This document shows positions 7,147 to 48,941 of a stretch of DNA of 64,000 bases, piece after piece (position 1 is the stretch's first letter; the number at the start of each line of letters is the position of its first letter). This DNA is from Paenibacillus graminis. GTDB lineage: Bacteria; Bacillota; Bacilli; Paenibacillales; Paenibacillaceae. The notes under the pieces were generated by a model, which worked only from the letters and a program-made list of their open reading frames with translations, did no database searches and was not told the origin of the DNA. The DNA lies in assembly GCF_000758705.1 (NCBI RefSeq), contig NZ_CP009287.1, positions 3,844,001 to 3,908,000 on the forward strand. The letters are read 5' to 3'. The translations under genes and the position numbers were made by a program.

Positions 7147-7168
7147 ACGCATCGTCATTATCCCACCA

Positions 7169-7305: not shown

Positions 7306-7327
7306 ATTCAACTTCTCACAAGGTCTA

Positions 7328-14992: not shown

Positions 14993-15007
14993 ATACATTC
15001 TCTTATC

Positions 15008-15049
15008 AAAAAAACCACCCTGTTCTCTGGGGGCAGAGTTCAGGGTGGT
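15008..15049 (-). terminator. Intrinsic terminator of the Cys-rich small gene
   Basis: Minus-strand ACCACCCTG/CAGGGTGGT stem with a nested AACTCTG/CAGAGAA helix, then seven T. It lies 29 bases past the stop. Confidence 0.88.
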
Positions 15050-15077
15050 CCTCATTATCGTCTATACGGGAGTAGTA

Positions 15078-15254
15078 TTATGCGTGCACAAGGTCTAATA
15101 ATTGCTTGGTTTCATCATTTTCTTCAGGCAGCATTCCATTGTCTGCCCAGCAAGCTCTACATTGTTCTTCTGTTTCACAGAGGTGTGCATCATCACAGTT
15201 GTAGCACAGTTGCAACAGGTTTCTGGTCACATAATCCGTTTCGAAAGTTTTCAT
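15078..15254 (-). CDS. Small Cys-rich protein with two CxxC motifs (58 residues)
   Basis: Read directly from the sequence. ATG 15254 is preceded by AGGAGAG at good spacing, and the stop is followed by a strong terminator. The protein starts MKTFETDYVTRNLLQL and has C17-x2-C20, C26 and C32-x2-C35, then an acidic tail (EENDETK). The two CxxC pairs suggest binding of zinc or an Fe-S cluster, or a redox role. No named family was recognised. Its promoter carries a perfect FNR/CRP-type box at the position used by class II activators, so expression is probably controlled by oxygen or redox state through an FNR/CRP-family protein encoded elsewhere. Confidence 0.8.
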   Translation of the reverse strand: MKTFETDYVTRNLLQLCYNCDDAHLCETEEQCRACWADNGMLPEENDETKQLLDLVHA

Positions 15255-31878: not shown

Positions 31879-31940
31879 GGGCTGACTAAAGGACCCAGTG
31901 CGGTGAGAGGACGGCCCTCGGCCCTTTCTCTCGTCAAACC

Positions 31941-32036
31941 AAGCAGAAACGACTGCGCCGTCCTTAAAAGGACGGTACCCGTTCTAGCAAAAAATATAGG
32001 ATAAGGTATAGCGCAAAGCATATAAATTCTTATATT
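31941..32036 (+). repeat. Dispersed hairpin repeat, copy A
   Basis: About 96 bases. The first part forms a GCCGTCC/GGACGG hairpin bordered by AAACG/CGTT arms. The last 30 bases (32007-32036) match copy B (48775-48804, opposite strand) with two differences. Lies between the zinc-ribbon gene and a terminator. Confidence 0.8.
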
Positions 32037-32037
32037 C

Positions 32038-32077
32038 AAAAAAGGGGAATGCCGCTTTCGCAGCACTCCCCTTTTTT
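32038..32077. terminator. Bidirectional terminator after copy A and the CDF gene
   Basis: AAAAGGGGA(A)TGC pairs with GCA(C)TCCCCTTTT; T or A runs on both sides let it act on both strands. It ends the CDF transporter gene (stop at 32107) and the zinc-ribbon transcript. Confidence 0.88.
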
Positions 32078-32106
32078 GTTTATTCCAGTAGTACCTATTG
32101 AAAAAG

Positions 32107-33090
32107 TTAACCTTCCGTCTGCGGCTCCCAGTTGCGGATGCCATTATCCTCCAGAATTCCGAGTGTCACATCCGAGATATGCGGATCAGCCAGCAGTTTG
32201 TCTCTGACCTTGAATTTGATATCATCCGCATCAGCCAGGGTCATCCCCTTCTTCAGCTCAATCAGACCTTCGACGTGATAATACCGCCCCTCCTGCAAAA
32301 TACGCATCTGGTAAATATCCGTCACCTGCGGATCGTCGAAGATGATCCGGGCAACCCGGTCTTCAATCTCCGGAGGGGCAGCTACACCGATAAGCCCGAC
32401 CATATTGTCATATCCCACGCGAAAAGCAACTCCGATCATCATAAAGGCAATCAGAATGCTGGACACGCCGTCAAGCAGCTTGAAACTGGTAAAGGCGGTC
32501 ACCAGCACGGCGAGCATCGCCAGTGCCCCACCGCTTGTGGCCACCAGATCTTCATAAAAAACCAGGCGGGTCGGAGGTGCGGCTCTTTTTACATTTTTAA
32601 GCGATGCGGTGAATTTCCTAAATCCTTTGGCTTCGATTCTGGATTCATGCAACACTTCATTCATCGCCTTCACCCAGACAAATCCATCTGCACCGATGGA
32701 AAGCAGCAGTACGATCACATTGATCCAATAGCCACCCGATTCCTCCGCCGGATGCTTCAGCAAATGGAAGCCTTCCAGCATCGTTTCATAAGCCATAATG
32801 GTCACGACAATCACGGCTACCATACAGAACAGGTTAATGACACGGCCGAAGCCGTCCGGGAAACGGCGGGTCGGCCTTTTCTCAGCGAGTACACTTCCGG
32901 TAAACACGAACATCTGGTTCACTGCATCGGCGATTGAATGCATCATCGTGGCGAACATTGAGCCACTGCCGGTGAGCGCGAACGCGGCGGCTTTGACGAC
33001 GGCAATGCAGGTATTGCCGATCGCGGCCGAGCCCGACGATTTGTTGCCTTTGCGGATTAAGCTTCCAAGCGATTCACTGGTTTGTTCCAT
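32107..33090 (-). CDS. Cation diffusion facilitator (CDF) transporter, ZnT9-like
   Basis: 327 residues with six predicted membrane segments in about 1-215 and a cytoplasmic C-terminal domain. TM2 carries HSIADAVNQ, matching the HxxxD metal site of CDF proteins, and TM5 carries YEDLVATSGG in place of the usual HxxxD. This E/D-based site and the sequence AEKRPTRRFPDGFGR are typical of the SLC30A9-like branch. Metal export (Zn, Mn or another divalent cation) is inferred from the family. ATG 33090 follows AAGGAGG. Confidence 0.86.
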   Translation of the reverse strand: MEQTSESLGSLIRKGNKSSGSAAIGNTCIAVVKAAAFALTGSGSMFATMMHSIADAVNQMFVFTGSVLAEKRPTRRFPDGFGRVINLFCMVAVIVVTIMAYETMLEGFHLLKHPAEESGGYWINVIVLLLSIGADGFVWVKAMNEVLHESRIEAKGFRKFTASLKNVKRAAPPTRLVFYEDLVATSGGALAMLAVLVTAFTSFKLLDGVSSILIAFMMIGVAFRVGYDNMVGLIGVAAPPEIEDRVARIIFDDPQVTDIYQMRILQEGRYYHVEGLIELKKGMTLADADDIKFKVRDKLLADPHISDVTLGILEDNGIRNWEPQTEG

Positions 33091-33201
33091 TGCTATGAAT
33101 GCCTCCTTACGCTGCGATTAGCCACTGCTGCGGGTCCATGTATGTATTTACCCTTTGCAGCCGGTTTCTATCACTCGCGGGGATTGGAGGCACCTGTTAA
33201 T

Positions 33202-33615
33202 TTACTCCGGGTCCGGCAGGTTGAGCTGCCAGGTTACGCCGAACCGGTCGGCCACCCATCCGAATTTGCGGCTGAAGGGGTATTCGCCTAAAGGCATCAG
33301 AACATTGCCCCCTTGAGATAGTTGTTCAAAAACAGTATCAAGCTCTGCTTCACTCGCACAATTGACATACAGTGAAATAGAAGGTGTGAAAGAGAAGCCG
33401 TGCTTCACATGGCTATCAATGCACATGAAGGAAGCTCCCTTAATCGTAAATGAAGCATGCATCACCGTTCCCTCTGCTCCGGCTTCACCTGGGCCATAAC
33501 GCTTAATGCTGGTTACTTCTGAACGGTCGAACAATGAAATATAGAAATTCATCGCCTCTTCAGCCTGTCCTTCAAACATCAGAAATGTGCTGATCCCTGG
33601 TTGTGCATGGGTCAT
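33202..33615 (-). CDS. VOC-family protein (PhnB-like)
   Basis: 137 residues forming two beta-alpha-beta-beta-beta units of the vicinal oxygen chelate fold, with FLMFEGQAEEAMNFYISLF at residues about 11-29 and GWVADRFGVTWQL at the end. These features mark the PhnB/3-demethylubiquinone-methyltransferase-like subgroup, whose functions are mostly unknown. Single gene; ATG 33615 follows GGGAG. Confidence 0.85.
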   Translation of the reverse strand: MTHAQPGISTFLMFEGQAEEAMNFYISLFDRSEVTSIKRYGPGEAGAEGTVMHASFTIKGASFMCIDSHVKHGFSFTPSISLYVNCASEAELDTVFEQLSQGGNVLMPLGEYPFSRKFGWVADRFGVTWQLNLPDPE

Positions 33616-33654
33616 GTACTCACAGCTCCCTCGTATAATTTGGCTTGTCCTATC

Positions 33655-35484
33655 TTATTCTACCGTATTGGAATTGGACATGCCATGGTCCGCCCCTTGC
33701 TCTGTTTCCGCAAATCCTGTTTTGATCCACAGCCGGGAGATGTCAAGAAAACCAAACGAACCGGTATGCAGGCCGAACAGGCTCTGGTTGAGCTGCGCCC
33801 TTTTGTTCAAATGGGAGCCGTATAATACCCAGCAGTTGTCACGGATCAAGGATTCCGCACGCTCCAACAGCAGAATTCTTGCTGCCTCCGGCACTTCGGC
33901 AAACTCCTGCAGCTGCGCTTCGATTTCGTCCCGCTGACTCTGCTGCAGCAGAGAATAAAAATGATTGGACTGATTGACGAAATAGTTAATCATTCCCCAT
34001 TGCCAGTCGTCCTCCAGCACCTCTTCCGCAAGCAGCAGATCGGCCTGCAGCAGAAGCTCCGCAATATTTAAATTTGAATAGGGTGCAAGACGGAGGTTCA
34101 GACCGATTCGTGCTCCACGCTGCTGCAGCCACTCCGCTTCTTCCCGCTCTTCTTCCCGTCTGGATGCATAGGCAAGCGTGATTTCTTCTCCCTGATACCC
34201 GCTGGAACGCAGCAGCTTCTCTGCTTCTTCAAAAGAAGGCCGTTGCCAAAGGGTGCGGCGGCTTTTCCAGGGCAAAAAACTGTCGGCCGGTGTAATGCGG
34301 TGGCCTCCCAATTCACTGACCAGCGTTTCCGGGTGGTACAGCATCCGCAGCACCTGCCGGAACAACGGGTGATGCTGTCGCCCTTCCCGTTGAAAGTTCA
34401 TCATAATATATCTGCAGCCCAGAGCCGGATAATCAATACTGTGATTGGCACACCCCCCACCGTTATCCGCTCCAAGTTCCGTATCCGGCAGCTGATACAT
34501 ACGGTCATTATAGCCCAGCTCCGGCACATACCAGATTTCAACCCGGTCCAAAAGCGGGCGTATAGCATAGTAATCATCGAACGCCGCCAGCACCAGCACA
34601 TCCTCATTGTAATCCAGCAGACGGTAAGGGCCGGTTCCAACCGGTTCATGGATGAAATCCACATCATAAGGCAGAATGGACATGTGCACACAGCTGAATA
34701 AATGCAGAAAAAACAGGTTGGGCCGCGCCAGATCGATGCGGATACGGTGATCCCCTTGAAGCTCTATCCGCACTATATCACGGTAATGCCACAAGACTGG
34801 ACTATGCAAATCGGTCAGCCGCTGCAGTGTCTCTTTCACATCTCTTGAGGTCAGAAACCTGCCGTGATGAAAACGCACTCCCTTACGCAGATAAAAAATA
34901 TAGCTGGTGTGCTCCGGGTTGGTCTCCCACATATGGGCTAATCCTGGCAAAAAGCTGTTGCTCTGCGCATCATAGGTTACGAGCGTGCTGCAAATCTGTT
35001 CGATCAGGTAGGATTCAAAGGCCGTATACACGGATGCCGGGTCCAGCTTCTCCATCCGCCGGTTGCGTGTGATGCGCAGAATATCAAGCCCGGCCGTGGA
35101 TTCAGCCTCACTGTGATAGCCCATGTGCTTATTCAAAAGCGATAACAGACGCTCCTGCAGCGCACCGTTCACCTCAGGCAAACCAATCAGCTCGATCCCC
35201 TGTTTGATTTTCCCCTTGCCGGTGAGCTCCTGAAGATGCTCCTCCAATATCTCCTCCACGCTCCGCATAAAGGCCATCCCGGACTTATGTCCCCGCCCCC
35301 GTCCAGGCTGCCATTGTATGAAGCCCTTCTCTTCCAGCTTGCGCAGGATGAATTTCACATTGCGGGGAGTACAGCACAGGACCGAAGCCAGCAGTTCTAT
35401 CGTCACCGGAATCGGCTCCTGGAGCTTGAAGGGGGTATTCAAGGCCGAAGTTAGCCGCAGAAAATGCACGACATTGTTATCCAT
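33655..35484 (-). CDS. SgrR-like regulator (HTH plus SBP_bac_5 domain)
   Basis: 609 residues. The N-terminal SgrR_N winged helix (about 1-115, LASVLCCTPRNVKFILRKLEEKGFI) is followed by a solute-binding-protein-type domain of family 5 (about 165-590, VRFHHGRFLTSRDVKETLQRL). No signal peptide is present, so it is a cytoplasmic one-component regulator that senses a small solute, as E. coli SgrR does for sugar-phosphate stress. Divergent from an MFS transporter, as sgrR is next to the sugar exporter setA in E. coli. ATG 35484 follows AAAGGAG. Confidence 0.88.
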   Translation of the reverse strand: MDNNVVHFLRLTSALNTPFKLQEPIPVTIELLASVLCCTPRNVKFILRKLEEKGFIQWQPGRGRGHKSGMAFMRSVEEILEEHLQELTGKGKIKQGIELIGLPEVNGALQERLLSLLNKHMGYHSEAESTAGLDILRITRNRRMEKLDPASVYTAFESYLIEQICSTLVTYDAQSNSFLPGLAHMWETNPEHTSYIFYLRKGVRFHHGRFLTSRDVKETLQRLTDLHSPVLWHYRDIVRIELQGDHRIRIDLARPNLFFLHLFSCVHMSILPYDVDFIHEPVGTGPYRLLDYNEDVLVLAAFDDYYAIRPLLDRVEIWYVPELGYNDRMYQLPDTELGADNGGGCANHSIDYPALGCRYIMMNFQREGRQHHPLFRQVLRMLYHPETLVSELGGHRITPADSFLPWKSRRTLWQRPSFEEAEKLLRSSGYQGEEITLAYASRREEEREEAEWLQQRGARIGLNLRLAPYSNLNIAELLLQADLLLAEEVLEDDWQWGMINYFVNQSNHFYSLLQQSQRDEIEAQLQEFAEVPEAARILLLERAESLIRDNCWVLYGSHLNKRAQLNQSLFGLHTGSFGFLDISRLWIKTGFAETEQGADHGMSNSNTVE

Positions 35485-35570
35485 ATCGAGTGCTCCTTTA
35501 AAGGTGAAAGAGAGGAGATAAAGCTTACACTTTTATTTCCCCCTTTTATCTATACAATTATACACATGCA

Positions 35571-35584
35571 GACACGGTTGTGTC
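35571..35584. promoter_or_regulatory. Short inverted repeat in the sgrR-like/MFS intergenic region
   Basis: GACAC-GGTT-GTGTC in the middle of the divergent 181-base gap. Possible operator; too short to be certain. Confidence 0.35.
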
Positions 35585-35665
35585 CTATCTATCCGTATAT
35601 TTTTGAACAGCACCAGTAAGGTTTCCCCAAAAATTCAGCAATCAGATTAGGAGATCCACGATTAC

Positions 35666-36904
35666 ATGAAACAGCATTTGCAGCAAATCCATCCTTTGGC
35701 CTGGACGATTATTATCGGCACCATGTTCGGCCGCCTGGTAACCTCGATGAGTATTCCCTTTTTATCCATTTATTTGACGCAGGTCCTTGGCGCATCACAT
35801 TCACAAACAGGCATCACTGTAGCTGTCAGCTCATTGGCAGGCGTGCTGGTCAGCTTCTATGGCGGATATATTTCCGATGTCTTCGGCCGCAAGATCGTCA
35901 TGCTGGTCTCTGTATTCGGCTGGGCATGTGTCTTTTTCGGCTTCTCGTCAGCCCAGCACATCTGGGTCTTTTTCCTGGTGAATACGCTGAATGGCCTGTG
36001 CCGTGCCGTATTCGAGCCCACTTCGCGTGCACTGCTCTCGGATATTACCCCTCCGGATCATAAACTGCTGGTTTTCAATCTGCGGTATGCGGCAGTTAAT
36101 CTGGGTGTTGTGTTTGGCCCAATAATCGGTTTACAGCTGGGTTCGGCAAAATCCACCTTCCCGTTCGTAATCGCAGGAGTTGTATATATTGCTTACGGAA
36201 TCGTACTCTTTATGCAATTCTCGGCCCATCGCGCCAGTCTGCCTGTGCGTTCGGAAGCCCGTGCTCCCCAGCTGCGTGAAGCGCTGGCAGTGACCGGGCG
36301 GGACCGTGTCTTTCTGCCGGTGCTGGTGGGGACTATCTTTTGTGTACTGGGTTATGGGCATTTCAGTTCCACGCTGGCTCAGTATCTGGCGGTTGACACT
36401 CATTTCTCGAATGGCAGCCAGGTCTTTTCCTACATGCTGTCACTTAACGCAGTCACCGTACTGGTGGTCCAATACCCGATCGTCCGTACAGCCAGTAAAT
36501 TTCCGCCGCTTGTTCCGTTAATTCTGGGGAATATTTGCGTGGCGCTCAGTCTGGTCCTGTTCGGAGTTGCTGGCGGGGTAGCCCTATTGATGTTCAGCGT
36601 GGTGCTCTTTACCGTAGGCGAGGTCCTTCTCTTCACCATGATGGATATGCTGATTGACCGGATTGCTAAGCCGGAATGGAAAGGCACGTATTTTGGCACG
36701 ATAGGCTTTAATAATCTGGGTAACGTGATGGCACCGGTTCTCGGGGGGCTGCTGCTTGATGAATTTGGCGCCACGAATGGCCCGGCTGTATTTGTACCGC
36801 TGGCTCTAAGCACAGCACTGGGTCTCCCGTTCCTCATTACCGCACATAAACGGCTGCATGCCAGAGAACGCACTGAAGCAGCAGGCACCTCTCAAAGCGC
36901 CTGA
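35666..36904 (+). CDS. MFS transporter (efflux-type)
   Basis: 412 residues with twelve predicted helices. The loop 2-3 motif GGYISDVFGRKIVML is an MFS A-motif, and LLSDITPPDHK follows helix 4 as in drug and sugar efflux members (SetA/YttB-like). It is divergently transcribed from an SgrR-like sensor, which suggests it exports the solute that the sensor detects. ATG 35666 follows TAGGAG at slightly long spacing. A strong terminator follows. Confidence 0.88.
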   Translation: MKQHLQQIHPLAWTIIIGTMFGRLVTSMSIPFLSIYLTQVLGASHSQTGITVAVSSLAGVLVSFYGGYISDVFGRKIVMLVSVFGWACVFFGFSSAQHIWVFFLVNTLNGLCRAVFEPTSRALLSDITPPDHKLLVFNLRYAAVNLGVVFGPIIGLQLGSAKSTFPFVIAGVVYIAYGIVLFMQFSAHRASLPVRSEARAPQLREALAVTGRDRVFLPVLVGTIFCVLGYGHFSSTLAQYLAVDTHFSNGSQVFSYMLSLNAVTVLVVQYPIVRTASKFPPLVPLILGNICVALSLVLFGVAGGVALLMFSVVLFTVGEVLLFTMMDMLIDRIAKPEWKGTYFGTIGFNNLGNVMAPVLGGLLLDEFGATNGPAVFVPLALSTALGLPFLITAHKRLHARERTEAAGTSQSA

Positions 36905-36938
36905 TCCAGTAAGTGTTCTAGCACGAACCTCACTATTA

Positions 36939-36974
36939 AGACCCGCCAGCAGCCGAAGCGCTTGGCGGGTCTTT
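36939..36974 (+). terminator. Intrinsic terminator of the MFS gene
   Basis: AGACCCGCCA/TGGCGGGTCT stem with a 14-base loop and TTTG tail. Confidence 0.86.
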
Positions 36975-37006
36975 GTTAGGCAGGATTTTGCCTTAAGTAG
37001 TTTCTA

Positions 37007-37031
37007 GTTAACATAATATTTAATATGTTAC
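37007..37031. repeat. AT-rich palindrome family, copy 3
   Basis: GTTAACATA, seven-base spacer, ATATGTTAC. It lies between the convergent MFS and WYL-regulator genes, just past the MFS terminator. Confidence 0.6.
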
Positions 37032-37049
37032 CTTATTTCATGAACTTGG

Positions 37050-38006
37050 TTAAACATATACCTTTTGCAGGATTAGAAGCTGCTCTTTAATGTAATTTCT
37101 GATCTCAGGAGGCTGCATGATTTCCGTTTCATCCAGCAGATTCATTACCTTCCTGCACGCCGATTCATAGCTGTACAGATTCAGTGTAAACTCCAGGTGT
37201 TCCCCGGTTCCTTTTACTTCGACGATCTCATACTGTCTCAACCCCTGCTGCCGCTCCTTAACGGTTCGCACAACTACAGGATAGAACTCGTCTTGCCTGC
37301 AGGTTTGCTTAAAAACGTCATTCCCGCGCAGCCAATATTCCTCCAAGGAGAAATCCGCCGGAACTGTATATTGCCCATCCATCGATTCAATTGCTGCAAT
37401 CCGCTCACATTTGAACGTACGAAGCTCTTCCGCTGCCTCGCAGTAAGCTGCCAGGTACCACTCCCCCTGCTTCACGATCATTCCATAGGGATGCAGAATG
37501 CGGGAGGTCAGTTCCCCATTAACCTTACGGTACTGAATGCGGATCATCCGGCATCTCCAGACGGCCGAGCGAAGCTGCTCCAGGCAAGGAAGCTCTGCCC
37601 GTTCCTCCCACCAGGGTGCGTTATCATAATAGAACCGGGTTTTGGCTTTACGGATATCCTCCTGATAGGCAGCGGGCAAGGTATTTTCAAGCTTCAGCAG
37701 CGCATTCTTAAGCTTCAATCCTGATTCGGTCTGAGCGTCAAAAGGAATACCCATCCCCGTCAAATACAGATTGATCACTTCTTCACCGTGCAGCTTCTGA
37801 AGATTGACCGTATACCCTTCCATCAGCGAGATTCCGCCCCCCGGCCCTGGGGTTGTGACCATGGGAATTCCCGATTCGGCTAAAACATCAATGTCTCTGT
37901 ATATAGAGCGAACTGAGGTTTCAAGCGCCTCTGCCAGCTCGTTGGCTTTCATTTTCCCTCTGGATTCAATCAGTAAAAGGATTGCAATTAAGCGGTGCAG
38001 CCTCAT
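37050..38006 (-). CDS. YafY-type WYL-domain transcriptional regulator
   Basis: 318 residues: N-terminal HTH_11 winged helix (about 1-60, ALETSVRSIYRDIDVLAESG), a WYL domain (about 140-220, IRIQYRKVNGELTSRILHPYG and WYLAAYCEA) and a WCX extension (about 240-318). WYL regulators bind nucleotides or other ligands. Divergent from a Gfo/Idh/MocA oxidoreductase across 114 bases, so control of that gene is likely. ATG 38006 follows AGGGGG. Confidence 0.9.
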   Translation of the reverse strand: MRLHRLIAILLLIESRGKMKANELAEALETSVRSIYRDIDVLAESGIPMVTTPGPGGGISLMEGYTVNLQKLHGEEVINLYLTGMGIPFDAQTESGLKLKNALLKLENTLPAAYQEDIRKAKTRFYYDNAPWWEERAELPCLEQLRSAVWRCRMIRIQYRKVNGELTSRILHPYGMIVKQGEWYLAAYCEAAEELRTFKCERIAAIESMDGQYTVPADFSLEEYWLRGNDVFKQTCRQDEFYPVVVRTVKERQQGLRQYEIVEVKGTGEHLEFTLNLYSYESACRKVMNLLDETEIMQPPEIRNYIKEQLLILQKVYV

Positions 38007-38120
38007 TTTAAGCCCCCTAGCATGATAGTAAAAAATCTGCAGTTACCACATTATTCTCGCCACTCTGTTGTCAACAATACATGTGTATGCTGAATGTATC
38101 AGAGAGAGGAGCTGCTGTAA

Positions 38121-39056
38121 ATGAATATTGGCATACTGGGAACAGGCTTTGGAGCTTATCACGCAAAACTATTTGCAGAAATGGAAGGCGTCAAACGGAT
38201 CGTTATCTTTGGCAGAAATGAAGCCAAGCTGGACAAGCTGAAGGAAGAACTGGGGGTTGAAATTACAACCTCGATTGAAGAGATTTTAACCGATCCCTCA
38301 CTGGATCTGATCGACATTTGCCTGCCATCCGATCTGCACAGCACATATGCCATCCAGGCTTTGAAATCCGGAAAACATGTTTTTTGCGAAACTCCGGTTT
38401 GCCTGAATCATGAGGATGCATGGGCTATGCGGCGAGCTGAAGATTGCTCCGGGAAGCGGATCATGGTCAATCAGTTTATCAAATTTGATCATGCATATAC
38501 CTATTTGTACGAATCAGTACACAGTGGGCAATACGGTAAGCTCCTGCATGTATCCTTAAAAAGAGAAACCGCACCATTATGGGGCGATCTGGGTTTAGGT
38601 AAGATTGCTGCTAACCTAATGATCCACGAATTGGATATGATCACCTGGCTGCTGGGTAATCCTCCGCTATCCTCTGTCTGGGGAAGCAGCAGCGGTAAGG
38701 ATGGGCAAGCACTGGTCCATGCGGATTTTGACACCTCACAGGTCTCTGCTGAGATTATCGTTTCCTCACAAATGCCTGAATCTTATCCGTTCACAGTGGG
38801 GTATGAAGCCTATTTCGAACAAGCTAAGCTTGTGTTCCATGAAGTAGATTATCCGGACGGCAAAGTGGAAGCCACGTTGTACGAATATGGACCGGCCGGT
38901 AAACAGGAGATTGTACTGGATCAAGGCAATCCTTATGAAAAAAGCTTGCGCTACGCGCTCCAAAGCTTCACCGATGGCACCCCCTCCATTATTTCACTGG
39001 AGCATGCCGCAAACGCCGCTGAAGCTGCTTTTGAGATTACCCGAAAATTGTCTTGA
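38121..39056 (+). CDS. Gfo/Idh/MocA-family oxidoreductase
   Basis: 311 residues. The N-terminal Rossmann fold has GILGTGFGAYHAKLF at the start, and the family motif EKP appears as ETPVCLN (CETPVC) near residue 95. The C-terminal alpha/beta domain has MIHELDMITWLLG with the conserved His/Asp. Sugar or inositol dehydrogenation with NAD(P) is the usual activity; the substrate is unknown. Probably regulated by the divergent WYL protein. ATG 38121 follows GAGGAG. Confidence 0.9.
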   Translation: MNIGILGTGFGAYHAKLFAEMEGVKRIVIFGRNEAKLDKLKEELGVEITTSIEEILTDPSLDLIDICLPSDLHSTYAIQALKSGKHVFCETPVCLNHEDAWAMRRAEDCSGKRIMVNQFIKFDHAYTYLYESVHSGQYGKLLHVSLKRETAPLWGDLGLGKIAANLMIHELDMITWLLGNPPLSSVWGSSSGKDGQALVHADFDTSQVSAEIIVSSQMPESYPFTVGYEAYFEQAKLVFHEVDYPDGKVEATLYEYGPAGKQEIVLDQGNPYEKSLRYALQSFTDGTPSIISLEHAANAAEAAFEITRKLS

Positions 39057-39263
39057 CACACATAGCAGCTTGAATAGCCGGGCACCCCCACCTTTTTCTT
39101 TGTTTTAGTATGTAAGGACCGTTATATGGTGCATTCAGGCGGTGTTGGCGGGGGCTGCCGGGTTTTTGTTTTATTATTATGAATTTTTCATATGATGTAA
39201 TATTCATTGTATGCTATTTCGAGTTCGAATTCACGTCAGGTTAGGCATAAGTTCTAACTTAAA

Positions 39264-39297
39264 ATAAGTTAACATATTTATTGTTATGTTAACTTAT
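39264..39297. repeat. AT-rich palindrome family, copy 4
   Basis: Perfect 13-base arms (ATAAGTTAACATA and its complement) around the spacer TTTATTGT. The most complete member of the family; about 180 bases upstream of the gene at 39475. Confidence 0.72.
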
Positions 39298-39434
39298 AAT
39301 ATTTTATAAATGTAAAATGCCAATTATTAGGTATCGTTATTAAAATTTTGCGTTTCATCCACATAAGAACATATGTTTTTATTTCTGGTTTGCTTATCTA
39401 AAGGGTATTCACGTAGAATCCAAGCCCGTTTTTT

Positions 39435-39443
39435 TGCTATAAT
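39435..39443 (+). promoter_or_regulatory. Extended -10 promoter of the 128-residue gene
   Basis: TGCTATAAT, a perfect -10 with a TGN extension, 32 bases before the ATG. No good -35 is visible, as is common for extended -10 promoters. Confidence 0.55.
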
Positions 39444-39474
39444 AAGGTAATTACAGGGTTGGGAGGTATGTAGC

Positions 39475-39861
39475 ATGAAAAAGGATAATAGTTTTAAGGA
39501 ATTCATAAAAAGTCCAGATCCTAATATGGCAGAACTCCCCTACTCTCGCCACGCTATAGAGCCGGAAAATATCGTCTGGCATAAGGAAACCATGAGCGTC
39601 GACAGTCTTCATGAAGCATATGAATGGATCACAAGCGGTCCTCTTTTGGAGATTCGCTACCTCTATTCCGGCTATCAGACATCCGACTGGATGCTGGCTC
39701 ATGTTCTGGTGTTTGAACTCACTCGGCTGAATACAATTTCCGATCCTCAGTTTCTTGTCCATGCGAATTATGATTTCACGAGTGAAGGCCTATGCTACAA
39801 AATCTGGGTAACGCCATTGACTCCGCTGCCCGCCTATAGTGACGACGAAAAGCCTGAATAA
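39475..39861 (+). CDS. Hypothetical protein (128 residues)
   Basis: Not recognised. ATG 39475 follows GGGAGG and an extended -10 promoter, so it is a real gene. Soluble, acidic, with no signal peptide and no cysteine motif. Contains WITSGPLLEIRYLYSGYQTS and ends with an acidic tail (SDDEKPE). AT-rich palindrome copy 4 lies upstream. It is convergent with the lipoprotein gene at 39905. Confidence 0.72.
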   Translation: MKKDNSFKEFIKSPDPNMAELPYSRHAIEPENIVWHKETMSVDSLHEAYEWITSGPLLEIRYLYSGYQTSDWMLAHVLVFELTRLNTISDPQFLVHANYDFTSEGLCYKIWVTPLTPLPAYSDDEKPE

Positions 39862-39904
39862 CCCTCATATTTGATGGGGTTATCCAAGCTTATCCATTGA
39901 TTCA

Positions 39905-40936: not shown

Positions 40937-41011
40937 GATCAATCACCTCAAAAGAAAGACGCTGGAAATCTCTAGAAGTTGCACTATCTTCATGCCCGCT
41001 GTTAATTAGCC

Positions 41012-42541
41012 CTAAAAAAGTTCGATAATCATTCCCAGGCGTTCTCCTTCGATCTGCGCTTCCAGCCTGCCTCCATGCAGCCTGATGATCTCCGCAGCAA
41101 TGGACAGACCCAACCCCGCGCCTTCACCAGTCCGCGAGGAATCCCGTTTGTAGAACCGGTCAAACAGCCGGTGCAGCTCCCCGCCCTCTACCGTTTGGGC
41201 CGGGGTGCTCCACAATTCCAGACGCACCGGGCATTGACGGCGGCTCTCTACCACAGATTCCCGGAGGCGGATGATAAGCTCCGTATCCGCACGGCTGTAT
41301 TTGAAGGCGTTGGAGAGCAGATTTTCCAGCACCCGGACGAAAAGGTCAGCGTCAATCTCCACATGGACCGACTGATCCGGAAGCAGCAGAACCGTATCAA
41401 TCTGCCTGTCCCTGCTTTGGGGATGATACCCATCCACAACCTGGCGCAGCAGCTCCTGCATATTCACCCTGCTCTTGTTCATCACGGTGGGTTTCCATTT
41501 CAGCTGCGAAATCTCAAAAAACTCATCAAGCAGCTTCTTTAAATAACCTGTCCGTTCCTCCAAAACCTCAATATACCGCTCCCTTTCCGGCTCACTGTCA
41601 TACGATTTTTCTTTGAGCAGACTGAGAAAGCCCATGATGGATGTTAACGGCGTGCGCAGATCATGGGAAATATTGAGCAGAAAATCCTTCTCCTTGCTCC
41701 GGCTTGTGACGATTTGCTCCGCCATATCATTCAGTGCTGCTGCCATCGTGGTAAGCTCGTTGTTGTATTTTAGCGGGATACGGGCCTGAAATTCAGTCGC
41801 GTACAGCGTATGCGTGCCCCGTTCGAGAGTACGCATATACCGGATTCTCCCCCGGACACCGAGATAAAAAAACAGCAAAAACACAACAATACCCAGCAGA
41901 GACACAGGATTCTCGGTATACGTAATCGTGCTTGCAGCCACCAGATAGAGTCCGTTCCCCAGCTTTCGCGTTTCCTGCATTTTTGTGCCGGAGCTATTGT
42001 TATAGCTGATGTCGATGCCTTCTTTGGGTGTAAAGAAAAGGATATTGTAGACTTGTTCCTCCTCCGGATTGCCGATCACGAAACTTCCAGCTTCGAGCGC
42101 AGGGGAAACATCTGCGGTAGACCGCAGTGCCTTGCCCCCCGGCAATGTCTCCCCGGAGCGGACAATGACAACGTGTGAATTGGCTTGCAGCAGTTCCCCC
42201 TGCACGTTAACCACAGACACAACAATTTCCTCTGCAGCCCTAAAGCCTTTGCTGTAATCCAAAGGAAACTTCTCCCGCAGCTCCTGCTCCAGCTGGTGGG
42301 GAATAGCCGCCTCGCCTGCCCGGGCATCCAGCCAGGCCGCCAGCGGATTGCCGACCTTCTCCCTGTAGTTCATAATCCGCTCTGCATCGGTCTGCACCGG
42401 ATAAAATAACGCGGAGCCCTTCAGAAAATGAGCTGTCAATGAAACTGCGGCCAGCGTGGCGGCCAGCGACAGAATAAAAATCAGGACCAGTTCCCCGACC
42501 AGTCCTGTTTTAAGCTTCTTTGTCCACTTTATAACCAACAC
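41012..42541 (-). CDS. Sensor histidine kinase of a two-component system
   Basis: 509 residues: transmembrane helix at about 10-35, extracellular sensor of about 150 residues, second helix near 195-215, HAMP-like linker, HisKA (LNISHDLRTPLTSIMGF, phospho-acceptor His about residue 283) and HATPase_c (NLLSNAFKYS, GAGLGLSI). The reading frame begins inside the end of the response-regulator gene: the GTG at 42541 overlaps that gene by 32 bases, so the two are coupled. An upstream ATG would put 61 low-quality residues before the first helix. Third gene of an operon with a serine hydrolase and the regulator. Confidence 0.88.
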   Translation of the reverse strand: MLVIKWTKKLKTGLVGELVLIFILSLAATLAAVSLTAHFLKGSALFYPVQTDAERIMNYREKVGNPLAAWLDARAGEAAIPHQLEQELREKFPLDYSKGFRAAEEIVVSVVNVQGELLQANSHVVIVRSGETLPGGKALRSTADVSPALEAGSFVIGNPEEEQVYNILFFTPKEGIDISYNNSSGTKMQETRKLGNGLYLVAASTITYTENPVSLLGIVVFLLFFYLGVRGRIRYMRTLERGTHTLYATEFQARIPLKYNNELTTMAAALNDMAEQIVTSRSKEKDFLLNISHDLRTPLTSIMGFLSLLKEKSYDSEPERERYIEVLEERTGYLKKLLDEFFEISQLKWKPTVMNKSRVNMQELLRQVVDGYHPQSRDRQIDTVLLLPDQSVHVEIDADLFVRVLENLLSNAFKYSRADTELIIRLRESVVESRRQCPVRLELWSTPAQTVEGGELHRLFDRFYKRDSSRTGEGAGLGLSIAAEIIRLHGGRLEAQIEGERLGMIIELF

Positions 42542-43208
42542 CCCAGACCGTTCTGATGTACTTGGAGTTTTTGACGGTATCACCCAGCTTTTCCCGCAGA
42601 TTGCGGATATGGGTAAGCACGGTGTTGTCGCTCTCCAGATAGGTATCTTCCCATACCAGCTCATAAATATCGCGTGAGGTAAACACCCGGCCCTTGTTCC
42701 TGGCCAGCAGCAGCAATATCCCATATTCTTTGGGCGTCATGTTGATCTCTACGCCATTTTTGGACACGGCATGTTCCTCCGGCAACAGAGTGACATCCTT
42801 AATCTGCAGCTCTCCCGGTGCTTCCGCCGACTTTTCTGCGGCTGCCGGCCTGCGTTTTAGAATCGCTGAGATTCGCAAAGACAGCTCTGTCAGATCAAAG
42901 GGCTTCGTCACATAATCATCGCAGCCGGCAATGAATCCCCTGATTTTATCCTCCTGCTGGTCCTTGGCGGTCAGGAAAATCACCGGAACCTCCGAGATTT
43001 CCCTAATCCGGCCAATCAGATCAAAACCATTCATGACCGGCATCATTATATCCAGTAAAATGAGCTGAAAAACCCCGGTCCGAATGTGGTCCAGCGCCGT
43101 CTCCCCATCATAGCAGGTCGAAATGCTGTACCCTTCCCGCTCCAAATATATGGATAAAAATTCCACAATCGTCCGGTCGTCATCCACAATTAAAATCCGG
43201 GCACACAT
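42510..43208 (-). CDS. OmpR-family response regulator
   Basis: 232 residues: receiver domain (about 1-118, ILIVDDDRT acidic pocket, phospho-acceptor Asp in LILLDIMMPVMNGFD near residue 50, switch Lys in KPFDL) and an OmpR winged-helix DNA-binding domain (about 135-230, TPKEYGILLLLARNKGRVFT). I chose ATG 43208 with AAAGGCGG upstream; the frame extends to ATG 43247, where it would overlap the hydrolase gene. Followed without a gap by its kinase. Confidence 0.92.
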   Translation of the reverse strand: MCARILIVDDDRTIVEFLSIYLEREGYSISTCYDGETALDHIRTGVFQLILLDIMMPVMNGFDLIGRIREISEVPVIFLTAKDQQEDKIRGFIAGCDDYVTKPFDLTELSLRISAILKRRPAAAEKSAEAPGELQIKDVTLLPEEHAVSKNGVEINMTPKEYGILLLLARNKGRVFTSRDIYELVWEDTYLESDNTVLTHIRNLREKLGDTVKNSKYIRTVWGVGYKVDKEA

Positions 43209-43239
43209 CTCGTCCAGCCGCCTTTCGTCCCTGTCTCCT

Positions 43240-45273
43240 CTAAACAAAAAGCAGCAGCTTCATCAGATACATGTAAAAGATCGCGCTTGCTCCGGCCAGT
43301 CCCAATCCCAGGATGACCGCTGCGTCAAGGAGATGCAGTTTTTTGCTTCGTCCATATTTTACCGTAAACCCTACCGAACACGCTATGCCTGCTGCGACCC
43401 CGGCTGCAAGAATGTTGGCTGCAAGCAGCCAATGGCCCTGTACCGCCCGGCTTTCGGAGAAAACACCAAGCAGGATCGCTGCCGCCGCACCAAGAATAAG
43501 CGGAGCAATAAGATAGGCAGGAAGCCTGTGCCGCAGACGCATTCTCGCCGCTCCCGGTTTTTTGCGCCTGCAAATGGCAATCACTCCCGCTATAAGACCC
43601 GGCAGTGCACCGGCCAGCGCTATTTTCCAAGCCAATCCTCCGGCCCCTGCTTCCCACGAATCCAGCTTCACAAACGCCTGGTAGGGTACTGTAGTGTCCA
43701 GCACGAGATATTTGCTCCCGCTCTCCCCTTCTTTTAGCACAAGATATTTATTGACCCTTTTATTGTAAAAAATCCGCTTGCCAACCGGTGTGTATGGCCC
43801 GTTCAGCTCCTCACCCGCGGATTTCAGGGTAACCTCCCCCTGATCACTGACGGTCACTCCGGGTGTCATCATCCGGTACCGCAGCTTGGAAACCCCTGGG
43901 CCGAGTCCCTCGCTGATCACCATGGCATATGTACCGGCGTAGGATTGAATGCTTGCAGCGGGTTCCGGTGCCTCACCGGTGGATGTGGTCAGCGGCTGAT
44001 CCATACTTACCCCGAAGAAGGAGTAGAACTGTTTCTCAAAGGCATCCCGCAAGGTCCCGTCGTCTCCTTCGTATTGGGAGTTGCAGCCGATGAAAAACCC
44101 GATTCCTCTGGAGGGCATGATCGATACCAGGCTGGAAAAAGCCTCCGTATCTCCGGGGTGAACCAGAATGGCGGGGTTTTTATAGTTTTGAAAAAAGCCA
44201 TAGGCATAACCGGGCATTAGGGGATGCGCGGAATATTGCAGCGAGTGCATCTGCTTGGCGGTATCTTGTTGTAAAATCGCGCTTTTCCCTTGCCCTCCAC
44301 CCTGCAGATGGGCCAAAAGAAACTTGCCCATATCGTCAGCGGTTGACCAGATGGAGCCGGCGGGGTAGGTCAGAACCTCCCCCTGCTTCATTTTGACAAA
44401 CCCTTTATCGTAAGAATATCCCTGGGCCAATTGCCGGTTCAAACGCTCCGGCGTAAGATAGGTCAAGCTGTTGTCCATATGCAGTGGAGCAAAAATATGC
44501 TGGCGTATATACTCATCGTAAGACAGGCCGCTTGCTCTTTCCACAATATATCCGGCGAGTGTAAATCCTTCATTGCTATACTGCACCGCATCTCCCGGTG
44601 CCCTCACCAGCGGCGGCAGCAGCTTCTGCAGGGTCTGCTCAAGCGGAACCCGCTGCTCCGGCACTGTGTCCGACCAGGCCCCTTCGCGTTGTTCGGCATT
44701 GGCGAAGCCTCCGGTATTTGTCAGCAAACGTTTCATGGTCAGCGGAGTTTTATACGGGTTGGCCACTTGCAGCGAATCCGGCAAATAGCGGTTCACATCC
44801 GCATCCAGGTCCAGTTTTCCCTGCTCCGCCAGCTGCATGGCAGCTGTAGCCGTAAAGACTTTGGACACTGAAGCGATGCTGAAGCGGGTCTTGTGCGGAT
44901 CTACCGGCACCTTGGCTTCCACATCCGCATACCCGTAGCCCTTCTCCAGCAGGACTGCACCATCCTTGACCACCGCCAAAGTTACGCCCGGCACATGGTA
45001 CTTGTCCATCGCTGTCTTCATAAATTCGTCGGTCTGCTGCTCCAGCCGCTCACGTTCCCTCACTGCGGCTGCTTCTGCGTGCTTCTCCGGCGGGGCGTAC
45101 GCTGTGTGCGGCGCCGATTGCACCGTCTTTGGCTGAAGCTTCGCTGCCTGCACCTCCGCCTGCTCCGGCTGTATCTTCACCGCTTGTGCCTGTGCCGACG
45201 CTGGCTGCATCCCTGCCGCTTGCGCCACAATCGCCGCTGCCAGCCCTATTTTCATCCATTGTCTCATTCTCAT
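43240..45273 (-). CDS. Secreted serine hydrolase / class C beta-lactamase-like protein
   Basis: 677 residues. A signal peptide ends near ASA (residue 28). The beta-lactamase-family domain (about 80-400) has the SxxK nucleophile in IASVSKVFT, the second motif YSN in QYSNEGFTLAG and the third motif HPG in ILVHPGDTEAF. A beta-rich linker follows, and the last about 130 residues hold three to four membrane helices. This layout matches DAC/esterase-like penicillin-recognising enzymes of the FmtA/PBP4* type. First gene of the operon with the two-component system, so it may be the system's output or a sensor of cell-wall damage. Confidence 0.86.
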   Translation of the reverse strand: MRMRQWMKIGLAAAIVAQAAGMQPASAQAQAVKIQPEQAEVQAAKLQPKTVQSAPHTAYAPPEKHAEAAAVRERERLEQQTDEFMKTAMDKYHVPGVTLAVVKDGAVLLEKGYGYADVEAKVPVDPHKTRFSIASVSKVFTATAAMQLAEQGKLDLDADVNRYLPDSLQVANPYKTPLTMKRLLTNTGGFANAEQREGAWSDTVPEQRVPLEQTLQKLLPPLVRAPGDAVQYSNEGFTLAGYIVERASGLSYDEYIRQHIFAPLHMDNSLTYLTPERLNRQLAQGYSYDKGFVKMKQGEVLTYPAGSIWSTADDMGKFLLAHLQGGGQGKSAILQQDTAKQMHSLQYSAHPLMPGYAYGFFQNYKNPAILVHPGDTEAFSSLVSIMPSRGIGFFIGCNSQYEGDDGTLRDAFEKQFYSFFGVSMDQPLTTSTGEAPEPAASIQSYAGTYAMVISEGLGPGVSKLRYRMMTPGVTVSDQGEVTLKSAGEELNGPYTPVGKRIFYNKRVNKYLVLKEGESGSKYLVLDTTVPYQAFVKLDSWEAGAGGLAWKIALAGALPGLIAGVIAICRRKKPGAARMRLRHRLPAYLIAPLILGAAAAILLGVFSESRAVQGHWLLAANILAAGVAAGIACSVGFTVKYGRSKKLHLLDAAVILGLGLAGASAIFYMYLMKLLLFV

Positions 45274-45395
45274 GCTCCCACTCCTGTCTCTATCAACATC
45301 TTATGGGTTCATGATACAGCGGCAATATGGAGAAAAAAGCGGCATAAATCTAAAGAAAAAATAAAGCCCTGTCCCATGATTGAACTGTAAGTTTT

Positions 45396-45905
45396 TTATT
45401 TGTTCACTCTATTAATACTTAATGTACTGAAATATTGGCTGGGATTACCTTGCTTGGGATTAAAGCGTTCTTTGAATTCCCCTCCAGTATACGAGCCGAT
45501 GACACGATGCCAAAAATTGCGTGCAGGGGTGTTGGCCCGGATCTGCGAAACCTTCCAGTCGCCGGGAAACATATCGAACAGCCGGTGTGCCGCCCATGTG
45601 CCTACTCCGCTGCGGCGGTATTTTTGCATCACAAAAAACTCGGTCATATAGAATTGCCCCTCTGCACTGCGAAGCAGCCTGTCCACTAGCGCAAATCCGG
45701 CAATATTATCGTCCACCGTGAACAAATAGGCGAATTTATTAGTTCCGCTGTTCCAGTAAGCCTCCAAACCGGGATAGGCCGGAAACGCGCCGTCACGGTC
45801 TACCTCAAGCTCCAGGTAGCGGGTAAAGTCATATAAATAAAACTGCATCAGCCTGCTGATGGTATGGCGCTGCTCTTTGGGAACCAGCTCAATTCCAAGT
45901 TCCAT
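45396..45905 (-). CDS. GNAT-family N-acetyltransferase
   Basis: 169 residues of the GCN5-related fold. The acetyl-CoA-binding segment VMQKYRRSGVGTWAAHRLF (about residues 98-116) has the Q/R-x-x-G-x-G/A pattern. The C-terminal part ends in ANTPARNFWHRVIG, typical of small-molecule or peptide acetyltransferases. ATG 45905 with GAGGTG upstream is preferred over the ATG at 45926. The substrate is unknown; single gene. Confidence 0.86.
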   Translation of the reverse strand: MELGIELVPKEQRHTISRLMQFYLYDFTRYLELEVDRDGAFPAYPGLEAYWNSGTNKFAYLFTVDDNIAGFALVDRLLRSAEGQFYMTEFFVMQKYRRSGVGTWAAHRLFDMFPGDWKVSQIRANTPARNFWHRVIGSYTGGEFKERFNPKQGNPSQYFSTLSINRVNK

Positions 45906-46083
45906 TAGGTCACCTCTGGGATTCACTTTTATTACACATTCTATAACTTTGCCATCTCAGGAGCAAGGCACCCCCTGGACCAGCTGTAAAATCCGGCCAA
46001 ACGCCATGAAACATGATAAAATAGGAAGAAACAAGGAAGACAACTCCGCAGTTGATCAGCAACCATGAGGCAGGTGAACAATT

Positions 46084-47166
46084 TTGAGCATTCAAAAAAA
46101 CAGCGACCGCAAACATTTAGACGAAAAAGTGCTGCATATGCCCTGGTTTGTACAGCAGTTCATTGACTTCAAACGTCCAGACCTCTCCCCCTCTACACTG
46201 CTGGAGTACATCCGCGATTATGAATCGTTCTTCGGCTGGCTGCGTGCAGAGGGGCTTACCCAGGCAACCCGTCTGGCGGAGATTACTTTACTGGATCTGG
46301 AGACGCTGCATATGGACAGCATTGTCGGTTACCGCCTGTACCTGACCACCCGTGCCGAGGGAACAAATACCAGAGTTACGGTCTCCCGCAAGCTTTCGGC
46401 CCTGCGTTCGTTATTCCACTATTTAAGCCAGATTGCTGAAGACGAAAATTTCTATCCTTTGCTCAAACGCAACATCATGGCCAAGGTGGAGATCAAACGC
46501 ATTCATAAGCCCAAAGACACCGCTGCCAAGCTTAAAGGCAAAATTCTGGAGGACGAGGAACTGCTGGAGTTCGTAGGATACATTTACGACGGATATGGGC
46601 GGGATGTTGAAGCGAACAAGCAGGCCTACTACTCTTTCCAGCTCAACCGTGAACGCGACGCGTGCATTGCGAGCCTCATTCTGAACTCCGGTCTGCGTGT
46701 CTCTGAAGTGGTCAACCTGAACGTGGATGATCTGGATGTGAACAATAAGCTGCTGTATGTCTACCGCAAGGGGAATAACGATGAGACGTTCAAAACTCCG
46801 GTCTACTTCAGGGAGCAGGCCAAGGATGACCTCTTGCTCTACCTGAGCCTGCGGCAGTCCCGCTACAAAACGCCCAAGAAAGAAAAAGCCCTGTTCATTG
46901 CACTGCCGAACGGCAGCCATGAAGGCAAACGGATGACCAAGCGGGCGATCCAGGAGATGATTATCAAATACGCCAAGCGGTTTGGCAAACCCTATCTTAC
47001 CGTGCATAAGCTGCGGCATTCTTTTGCTACAGACTATTATCTGCAAAATGATATCTACAAAACGAAGGAACAGCTCGGACACGCTTCAACGGAAACTACC
47101 GAAGTATATGCGCATCTTACAGACAAAACGATGTCTGAGGCTATTGAGCGGCGTCTGGAGAGCTGA
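46084..47166 (+). CDS. xerS: XerS-like tyrosine recombinase
   Basis: 360 residues, longer than XerC/D and close to streptococcal XerS (356), the single recombinase acting at difSL sites to resolve chromosome dimers. N-terminal core-binding domain to about residue 165. Catalytic residues: Arg in LNSGLRVSEVVNL, Lys in YRKGNN, HxLRH in [12 protein letters not shown], His in LGHASTETT and Tyr in EVYAHL. Start TTG 46084 with AGGTGA. No XerS target site was recognised nearby. The XerC/D-like gene at 19742 is a second recombinase. The call rests on length and alignment to memory. Confidence 0.82.
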   Translation: MSIQKNSDRKHLDEKVLHMPWFVQQFIDFKRPDLSPSTLLEYIRDYESFFGWLRAEGLTQATRLAEITLLDLETLHMDSIVGYRLYLTTRAEGTNTRVTVSRKLSALRSLFHYLSQIAEDENFYPLLKRNIMAKVEIKRIHKPKDTAAKLKGKILEDEELLEFVGYIYDGYGRDVEANKQAYYSFQLNRERDACIASLILNSGLRVSEVVNLNVDDLDVNNKLLYVYRKGNNDETFKTPVYFREQAKDDLLLYLSLRQSRYKTPKKEKALFIALPNGSHEGKRMTKRAIQEMIIKYAKRFGKPYLTVHKLRHSFATDYYLQNDIYKTKEQLGHASTETTEVYAHLTDKTMSEAIERRLES

Positions 47167-47199
47167 TAACCTTATTATCGAAAGGAGTTATTGTCTTAA

Positions 47200-48069
47200 A
47201 TGTCATACCCTCAAGAATTGCTGTCTGCTTCACCCGACCAAAAACACATCCATTTACAATCCAATTGCGAAAGCTGCTTTGGCCTATGCTGTGCCGCACT
47301 GCCTTTTGCCGTATCATCGGACTTTGCCATCGATAAAAATGCCGGGCAGCCTTGTCCTAACCTAAGGAATGACTTCCGCTGCGGGATTCATACCGGACTG
47401 AGAGCCAAGGGATTCAGAGGTTGTACTGTATATGAATGCTTTGGTGCAGGTCCAAAAGTTTCCCATATTACCTTCAACGGCAGGGATTGGCGCGAGGCTC
47501 CGGAAACCGCCGCTCAAATGTTCGAGGTCTTCCCGGTGATGCGTCATCTTCATGAGCTGCTGTGTTATCTGACCGAAGCACTGCTGCTGCCGGCTGCCCA
47601 GCCGATCCGCAGCCAGCTCCATTCCGCTCTTGAGCAGACGGAGCGGCTCACCCTGCTGCCGGCTGAAGCCCTGCTCAAGGTGGATGTGTACACTCACCGT
47701 GCAGAGATCAATGAGCTGCTGCTGCGGACCAGCGAACTGGCACGCGAAGCTTCACGGCGCCAGCTGCACAATGCCCCCAAACGTCCCAAAATCTATCGGG
47801 GCGCTGATCTGATCGGCGCCAAGCTCAAGAAGGCAGATCTGCGCTGTGTCAGTCTGCGTGGAGCTTATCTGATTGCTGCAGACCTTAGCGGTGCAGATCT
47901 GAGGGGAGCCGATCTGATCGGCGCTGATTTCCGCGACACCAATCTTTGCGGCGCTGACCTTAGAGACACGCTGTTTCTAACCCAATCGCAGCTAAATGCC
48001 GCTAAGGGGGATATTTTAACCCAGCTTCCCGATAGATTTGTACATCCTGAACACTGGACTATGGTGTAG
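47200..48069 (+). CDS. Pentapeptide-repeat protein with N-terminal Cys cluster
   Basis: 289 residues. The N-terminus has CESCFGLCC (CxxCxxxCC, residues about 24-32), then single cysteines in [24 protein letters not shown], a cluster that should bind zinc or an Fe-S centre. The middle is helical. The C-terminal part (about 195-260) has consecutive A(D/N)LxX pentapeptide repeats ([31 protein letters not shown]), forming a right-handed beta-helix. Similar Cys-plus-pentapeptide proteins occur in Actinobacteria and Firmicutes without known function. It follows the XerS-like gene by 33 bases and precedes a strong terminator. Confidence 0.88.
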
Positions 48070-48117
48070 AAGCGATGCTGCAAATGCTGGCTCTTTATTT
48101 CCCAAAGTCCATATAGC

Positions 48118-48167
48118 AGAACAGCGGCCCCGCACTCCATCGGCTGGAGAGCGGGCCGCTGTTCTTT
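48118..48167 (+). terminator. Intrinsic terminator of the pentapeptide-repeat gene
   Basis: AGAACAGCGGCCC/GGGCCGCTGTTCT perfect 13-base stem with a TTTG tail, about 50 bases past the stop. Confidence 0.9.
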
Positions 48168-48237
48168 GTAACAGGGTTTATAAGGAATTAACATCTACGG
48201 GAGTTGTTGTACTACTGAGATTTCTATTGTGAATTTT

Positions 48238-48747
48238 TCATATATTGAAATTTTGAAAATAAGATCGTTGCTGCCACAAAAAGTTAGCTATTTCCAGGCT
48301 ATCGTTAATGGCAAACCGGTGAATGCCTTGGATCTCCGGAAATTCCATATCCCGTATTGAGTCCCAGACGGCCATTCCGGCTATATTGCTTGCCTCTCCC
48401 AGCAGCGGGATATCCTCTTCACGGCGGATCAGGACGATTTTGGGGTAATGTTCCTGTTTGAAGCCCTCTACCAGCACATAATCATAGCCGGCAAAAGCTT
48501 CAACCAGTTCCGCCAGACGGCTTCCCCGTTCCTGAATCACCGATGTCCGGGCAGCGCTGGTGATGGCAACCGCTGAAGCTCCGGCCTGCCGCTGCTTCCA
48601 GGTATCCGTTCCCTCGTGGTCCATCTCAAAGTCATGTCCGTCATGCTTGATGACCGCCACTGTACAGCCTCTCTTTCGCAACAGCGGAATCAATTCGCAG
48701 AGCAGGGTTGTTTTGCCGCTGTTTTTATAACCAACGATCTGGCACAC
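48238..48747 (-). CDS. mobB: Molybdopterin-guanine dinucleotide biosynthesis adaptor MobB
   Basis: 169 residues with GTG 48747 as start. MobB GTPase features: P-loop GYKNSGKTTLL near the N-terminus (residues about 6-16), KHDGHDFEMDHEGTDTWK switch region, and VEGFKQEHYPKI. The frame is open for another 51 codons upstream to ATG 48900, but those codons are the dispersed repeat copy B (48775-48873), not MobB sequence, and MobB proteins of about 160-175 residues begin just before the P-loop. Downstream of moeA on the same strand; together they support molybdenum-cofactor maturation. Confidence 0.83.
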   Translation of the reverse strand: MCQIVGYKNSGKTTLLCELIPLLRKRGCTVAVIKHDGHDFEMDHEGTDTWKQRQAGASAVAITSAARTSVIQERGSRLAELVEAFAGYDYVLVEGFKQEHYPKIVLIRREEDIPLLGEASNIAGMAVWDSIRDMEFPEIQGIHRFAINDSLEIANFLWQQRSYFQNFNI

Positions 48748-48774
48748 GGCAGGTCTGCTGCTCCCTTTTTTCAA

Positions 48775-48873
48775 AATATAAGAATTTATATGCTTCACGC
48801 TATAAATTTTCCTTCTATTTCTCGCTGAAACGGTACCGTCCTTAAAAAGGACGGCAAAGCCGTTTCTACTTGT
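48775..48873 (-). repeat. Dispersed hairpin repeat, copy B, between moeA and mobB
   Basis: About 99 bases on the minus strand, with the GCCGTCC/GGACGG hairpin inside AAACGG/CCGTTT arms. Its last 30 bases (48775-48804) match copy A with two differences, and its first 24 (48850-48873) match copy C exactly. It sits in the moeA-mobB gap and extends the mobB frame artificially. Confidence 0.8.
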
Positions 48874-48941
48874 CTTCTTTTGAAGTCTGCGCCGCCTCAT
48901 TCCAGCAGCCTCCCATTCCGCATTGCCTGGCTCAGGCCTTT

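Follow-up and report, generated by a model that had tools for sequence, protein, structure and literature searches.

A dispersed two-hairpin repeat located beside intrinsic terminators in Paenibacillus

Short dispersed repeats are common in bacteria, and the movement of orphan families is mostly unexplained. Several described systems are relevant here. Class C group II introns insert directly after terminators, with a strong lagging-strand bias (PMC8919778), and the hairpin is a recognition determinant (PMC3898094). IS200/IS605 elements target the lagging-strand template and their orientation mirrors replication (PMC5371812). Of the pneumococcal repeats, BOX and RUP carry terminal inverted repeats and are flanked by target duplications; these two and SPRITE do no more than mirror coding bias, at 60.8–63.3% (PMC3049150). 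Rickettsia palindromic elements are found in frame within genes, and the same review, on miniature inverted-repeat transposable elements (MITEs), shows no comparable terminator-adjacent family in its available portion (PMC10969869). Terminators of low-GC firmicutes frequently carry A-tracts and may act bidirectionally (PMC1590033). The repeat described here was noticed in a 64,000 nt stretch of Paenibacillus graminis, contig NZ_CP009287.1, positions 3,844,001–3,908,000 (the window), where three copies, termed A, B and C, had been proposed. It is probably a non-autonomous element of about 100 bp with two hairpins, which would enter the lagging-strand template beside terminators as a single strand bearing hairpins, by means of a putative trans-acting enzyme. 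No description of it was found in the open-licence papers searched.

The element displays, in order, CAAG, hairpin 1, hairpin 2 and TATATTT, both hairpins being imperfect. Its mobility is evident from comparison of orthologous sites. For 18 high-scoring copies in the P. graminis genome (G000; 7.17 Mb, single contig), the sequence flanking the 3′ end was sought in the close relatives G015, G043 and G048, and the alignments were read by eye. An uninterrupted empty allele is present in at least one relative at 11 of the 18 sites; the other seven show filled alleles only, partial deletion or rearrangement. None of the 11 displays a target site duplication. Sites 2202916 and 1332303 have gained precisely CAAG...TATATTT with no duplication, and the same holds at 2270943 and 4670251 save for one substitution and the length of an A-tract. 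The remaining empty-allele sites show gain or loss of 1–2 nt at the insertion. At sites 864039 and 3727224 other repeats occupy the same spot in a relative. There is no fixed target tetranucleotide beside the left end in the aligned sites; the insertion points vary and have only an A-rich tract. Clean empty alleles without target duplication indicate that the element moves. The repeat is a non-autonomous mobile repeat; its copies are dispersed, conserve their structure and differ in presence among close relatives. The orthologs of site 3126874 (loci L202, L208 and L213) have hairpin 1 alone in G048, G043 and G015, where G000 has a full copy. Pieces of this kind may be either remnants or units in their own right.

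The family is large. A BLASTN search of G000 with copy B gives at least 43 matches (40 scored candidates among 102). A covariance model made from ten copies (R1) finds at least 77 matches at E ≤ 1 and at least 62 at ≥40 bits; 150 of 5384 first-look candidates were scored, and these counts are therefore lower bounds. The three places first reported were an undercount. Copies with ≥33 bits, 71 in number, were tabulated. Hairpin 1 reads CAA-GYRG-AAACGG ... CCGTTTC-AGC with the inner stem GCCGTCC/GGACGGT (in the direction of the original prediction), and hairpin 2, GAAATANAAGGATAATTTATAGCG-TGAA-GCATATAAATTCTTATATTT, lies 3′ of it. The GYRG motif precedes hairpin 1 and may be structural, since its G and Y are base-paired with the GC that follows the stem. 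The ends, CAAGTAGAAACGG and, reversed, AAATATAAGAAT, are unlike, i.e. there are no terminal inverted repeats. An extra arm in hairpin 1 (GCTTCCGAAGCAGCGATAC...GTATCGCTTTCAGG) is seen by eye in nine of the 71 tabulated copies, eight of 144–147 bp and one a partial match (G000 positions 608796, 4021880, 4132066, 4529737, 4564841, 5753445, 6554165, 6718996 and 7158748).

Both hairpins covary. Among 105 distinct copies from G000 and relatives, two-sided changes occur at 30 of 38 pairs, and 108 cells show such changes, compared with a mean of 26.5 in shuffles and 30–45 in slid structures. Pairing cells make up 89.4%. The arms of copies A and B that differ in sequence and still pair, which had been noted from these two copies, are real and part of this family-wide pattern; the folding z-scores are −5.18 (A) and −5.40 (B). 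Presence and absence at orthologous sites, the many copies and the compensatory changes support the early suggestion of a non-autonomous mobile repeat. Restriction to two or three copies, or a lack of compensatory changes, had been named in advance as grounds for giving up the original prediction; neither was found.

The insertion target is the intrinsic terminator. Hairpins of ≤−10 kcal/mol with a T-rich tail, ending 4–14 nt from the insertion point and reading towards the element, were scanned for. In G000 such a terminator is beside the 3′ end of 40 of 62 copies; the 5′ side has one in 2 of 62, and random places in the same loci in 8 of 248. For other genomes, where 52 of 54 matches were submitted to the scan and two of these 52 were skipped, the figures are 35/50 at the 3′ end, 2/50 at the 5′ end and 4/200 at random. 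With the threshold at ≤−8 kcal/mol there are 41 copies, and the hairpin is 5–7 nt away in 26 of them, a figure limited by the scan range. The empty alleles already hold a terminator-like hairpin, as judged by eye; it is weak by the scan at 3727224. Thus the element inserts a few bases past the hairpin of pre-existing intrinsic terminators, with no target duplication. On the terminator strand the hairpin and TTTTT are followed by the element, which reads AAATATAAG...CTTG. G001 and G007 each have a terminator with a copy on either side, both facing it. Some targets resemble T-box attenuators, with GGTACCACC beside sites 2202916 and 2270943.

Orientation relative to replication was analyzed in five single-contig genomes (G000, G043, G022, G010 and G012). 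Replication arms were taken as half the chromosome length; GC skew agrees save for one sampled point near the origin in each of G012, G010 and G043. The gene baseline was ORFs (open reading frames) of ≥150 aa in the fetched loci for G000, and sampled ORFs for the others. Of the 62 sites in G000, 52 have the element opposed to the leading strand, compared with 167 of 256 ORFs on the leading strand (p 0.004). The preference persists whichever way the right-hand gene points: 16 of 20 sites with this gene directed away from the element and 35 of 41 with it directed towards the element, while one site has no such gene. G043 (64/71 vs. 44/78 for genes, p 3e-6) and G022 (25/25 vs. 50/66, p 0.005) also show an excess. 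A pure gene-orientation effect is insufficient to explain the bias in these three genomes and sufficient in G010 and G012. Orientation is likely coupled to replication, though not generally. The terminator at the 3′ end and the orientation that follows replication in three of five genomes are features beyond the original prediction.

These properties can be combined in a model. The mobile strand would be the one that carries the terminator hairpin and TTTTT ahead of the element. The terminator hairpin would fold out in single-stranded DNA at replication forks. Since the mobile strand is mostly on the lagging-strand template, the hairpin-bearing single strand would probably be pasted into this single-stranded fork DNA by a putative enzyme acting in trans and recognizing the hairpins of the element.

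Several observations weigh against this model. No terminator hairpin is found at the threshold for 22 of the 62 G000 copies, including copy B. There is no orientation excess in G010 (22/26 vs. 51/71, p 0.29) or, among the matches listed, in G012 (29/43 vs. 172/230, p 0.35), and G000 and G043 have copies in common and hence are not independent. The covariation alignment was fitted to the model, which favors the structure somewhat. No full-length carrier with both element ends was found in G000. With respect to the enzyme, the carriers G001, G008, G011 and G012 have no Y1_Tnp match, and the carriers G001, G007, G008 and G011 have no match to the GIIM maturase domain, reverse transcriptases without GIIM not having been searched.

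The copies in the window and the features around them are as follows.
Positions ~14950–15006, plus strand: copy C, internally deleted, with hairpin 1 and a decayed 3′ end kept, beside a terminator; 15.6 bits.
Positions 15013–15050, minus strand: intrinsic terminator facing copy C, downstream of a 58-aa ORF (15078–15254, minus); −26.6 kcal/mol.
Positions 31940–32036, plus strand: copy A, full element (CAAG ... TTATATT); covariance-model score 64.1 bits.
Positions 32038–32078, minus strand: intrinsic terminator facing copy A, belonging to the opposing gene 32107–33090; −28.0 kcal/mol.
Positions 32107–33090, minus strand: ORF of 327 aa whose terminator adjoins copy A, presumably a cation-efflux-type protein from its resemblance.
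Positions 48238–48900, minus strand: ORF of 220 aa, which we take to be mobB-like; the frame continues without a stop across copy B in G000, G015 and G043, whereas the G048 version is out of frame.
Positions 48774–48872, minus strand: copy B, full element, within the open 5′ part of the mobB-like ORF; covariance-model score 126.9 bits.

Copies A and B are thus borne out, with the element's own boundaries as listed. Each indeed follows a gene of like orientation, as first described, yet copy A adjoins the terminator of an opposing gene and copy B is inside the mobB-like frame, where it would add about 33 residues to the predicted protein. In G050, which does not have the element, the matching upstream ATG runs directly into mobB, by eye. 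Copy C, originally called truncated, exists but is better described as internally deleted. It falls below significance against the full covariance model (15.6 bits, E 0.41); the 5′-end pattern, however, has 54 matches in the genome, among them the 25-base 5′ end of copy C, and a reversed-pattern control gives none. The sole Rfam match of the window at the gathering threshold is a c-di-AMP riboswitch (RF00379, 80 bits) at 7155–7312 on the minus strand.

The element could instead be a structured RNA, or its DNA form, that the host keeps at gene ends for transcript stabilization or to block read-through, its placement and orientation then resulting from selection. The strong covariation, the stable folds and the position beside terminators are consistent with this. 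Presence nevertheless varies among close relatives at the 11 sites with empty alleles, and copy B is within a reading frame. At shared sites the element has also diverged about as much as its flanks, with 590 of 645 identical columns vs. 1246 of 1382 (six ortholog pairs, five sites). In the pair at 2579110 the element is much more diverged (95/108 vs. 226/229), and shared copies show no consistent direction of change in folding energy. This test, which is small and weak, gives no sign of selection at the single site. A host function, including the RNA function that had been considered possible, is unlikely.

A derivative of the REP or IS200/IS605 type, moved by a Y1 transposase since lost from several carriers, appears equally improbable. 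The lack of duplication, the subterminal hairpins and GYRG before hairpin 1 favor it, as does a polarity like that reported for IS200/IS605 (PMC5371812). Y1_Tnp matches are found in 11 of 24 genomes, with the four carriers named above among those lacking one, and the insertion point has no fixed target tetranucleotide. The single Y1 transposase of G000 (L031:1468–1941) appears to be an ordinary IS200 element; it is not flanked by the repeat and has no ends in common with it. A terminator-like hairpin lies just upstream of this transposase. A RAYT or IS200 protein as resident mobilizer has no support, and the REP-like identity suggested at the outset is likewise unsupported in the strict sense of a REP with its RAYT.

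The element may also be viewed as a passenger of class C group II intron machinery, although this is improbable too. The target and polarity match those reported for class C introns (PMC8919778; PMC3898094). GIIM matches are present in 12 of 24 genomes, G000 having four and G012 17, but among reverse transcriptases with this domain, the kind searched, none is found in the four carriers named above for it, and the element has no Rfam match (window and copy B searched). Group II introns have the ends GUGYG...AY, from which the ends of the element differ on both strands.

An autonomous copy with the same ends was also considered and rejected. Among the matches listed in G000 for the two end patterns (103 and 54), no orphan 5′ and 3′ pair on one strand within a few kb is seen by eye. 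The 19 orphan ends inspected (L255 left out) are half copies, decayed copies or other repeats. The terminal CAAG/CTTG of the element, which is like the IS91-type target, suggested an IS91-like origin; this is rejected because the empty sites do not have CAAG. Movement in trans by an IS110-family transposase is very improbable: Transposase_20 is present in 6 of 6 carriers and 0 of 4 non-carriers (10 same-genus genomes) and one composite insert, found in G043 where an element would sit, contains an IS110-like ORF, but the split may mirror clade only, G029 has six IS110 matches and no element, element ends are found in 0 of 20 fetched IS110 loci, and the flanks are unlike in the six inspected.

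Other repeats accompany the element. R2 displays a terminator-like hairpin (AACGGCTACGCCGTCC...GTAGCCGTT), then GTTTAGCGTTGCCTGGAGAACCC, then the arms AAGTGGAAAAAGG/CCTTTTTCCACTT, and by eye it directly follows the 3′ end of several copies (L010, L021, L024, L025, L028, L029, L220, L256 and L257). The IS110-like ORF of G043 (L256:8383–9345) is in R2, as part of a composite insert of about 2.2 kb whose site holds an element copy in G000 and is empty in G048. R3, of several hundred bases, has a different body and the 3′ end of the element (ACATATAAATTCTTATATTT), and is found beside terminators (L241, L242, L256 and L257, by eye). Repeats that differ in body but agree in their ends may be passengers of a single machinery. 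A tentative extension is that Paenibacillus holds an undescribed single-strand insertion machine which reads terminator hairpins at forks and serves several unlike repeat families, including this element and R3 (3′ end ATAAATTCTTATATTT, same sites). Such a machine, for now a speculative possibility, could be something other than a Y1 transposase or a group II reverse transcriptase.

The family is mostly intergenic, as judged by neighboring genes. Matches at E ≤ 0.01 occur in 17 of 24 sampled same-genus genomes and in 4 of 15 others of the order, the latter with 1–6 matches each. The 27 exact-pattern stretches include P. jilunlii, P. phytohabitans, P. silagei, P. agri, P. ihuae, P. helianthi and P. 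albidus. The plasmid and phage collections searched gave no match. The family gives direct clues to how it spreads: it leaves empty sites to compare, it targets a structure (terminators), and its polarity follows replication in some genomes. These clues make a mechanism testable and suggest how a genomic parasite attains dozens of copies with little cost to genes.

In comparison with known systems, the element is not a strict MITE, having neither terminal inverted repeats nor target duplication. Unlike REP with RAYT, no RAYT flanked by the repeat is found in G000; REPs have GTAG/GTGG before a short palindrome, and the element has GYRG before hairpin 1, with its G and Y paired. As with BOX, RUP and SPRITE, it is a short structured repeat that clusters with other repeat families and favors gene 3′ ends, but SPRITE resembles a terminator whereas the element adjoins one. 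Copy B is within a reading frame, as Rickettsia palindromic elements are, but this copy, the only one examined, is out of frame in G048, and the family lies mainly between genes. With IS200/IS605 elements and their non-autonomous derivatives it shares hairpins near both ends and the absence of target duplication. Their orientation follows replication; that of the element shows an excess over genes in G000, G043 and G022 and none in G010 and G012. Unlike them, the element has no fixed target tetranucleotide, and four carriers have no Y1 transposase. Group IIC introns likewise insert after intrinsic terminators, but the element is about 100 bp in length with no ORF and no Rfam intron match (domain V core), and the maturase domain is missing in several carriers. 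Although it resembles group IIC introns and IS200/IS605 in the way it works, the element lacks features that define either of them, and is therefore placed among dispersed non-autonomous mobile repeats, in neither system.

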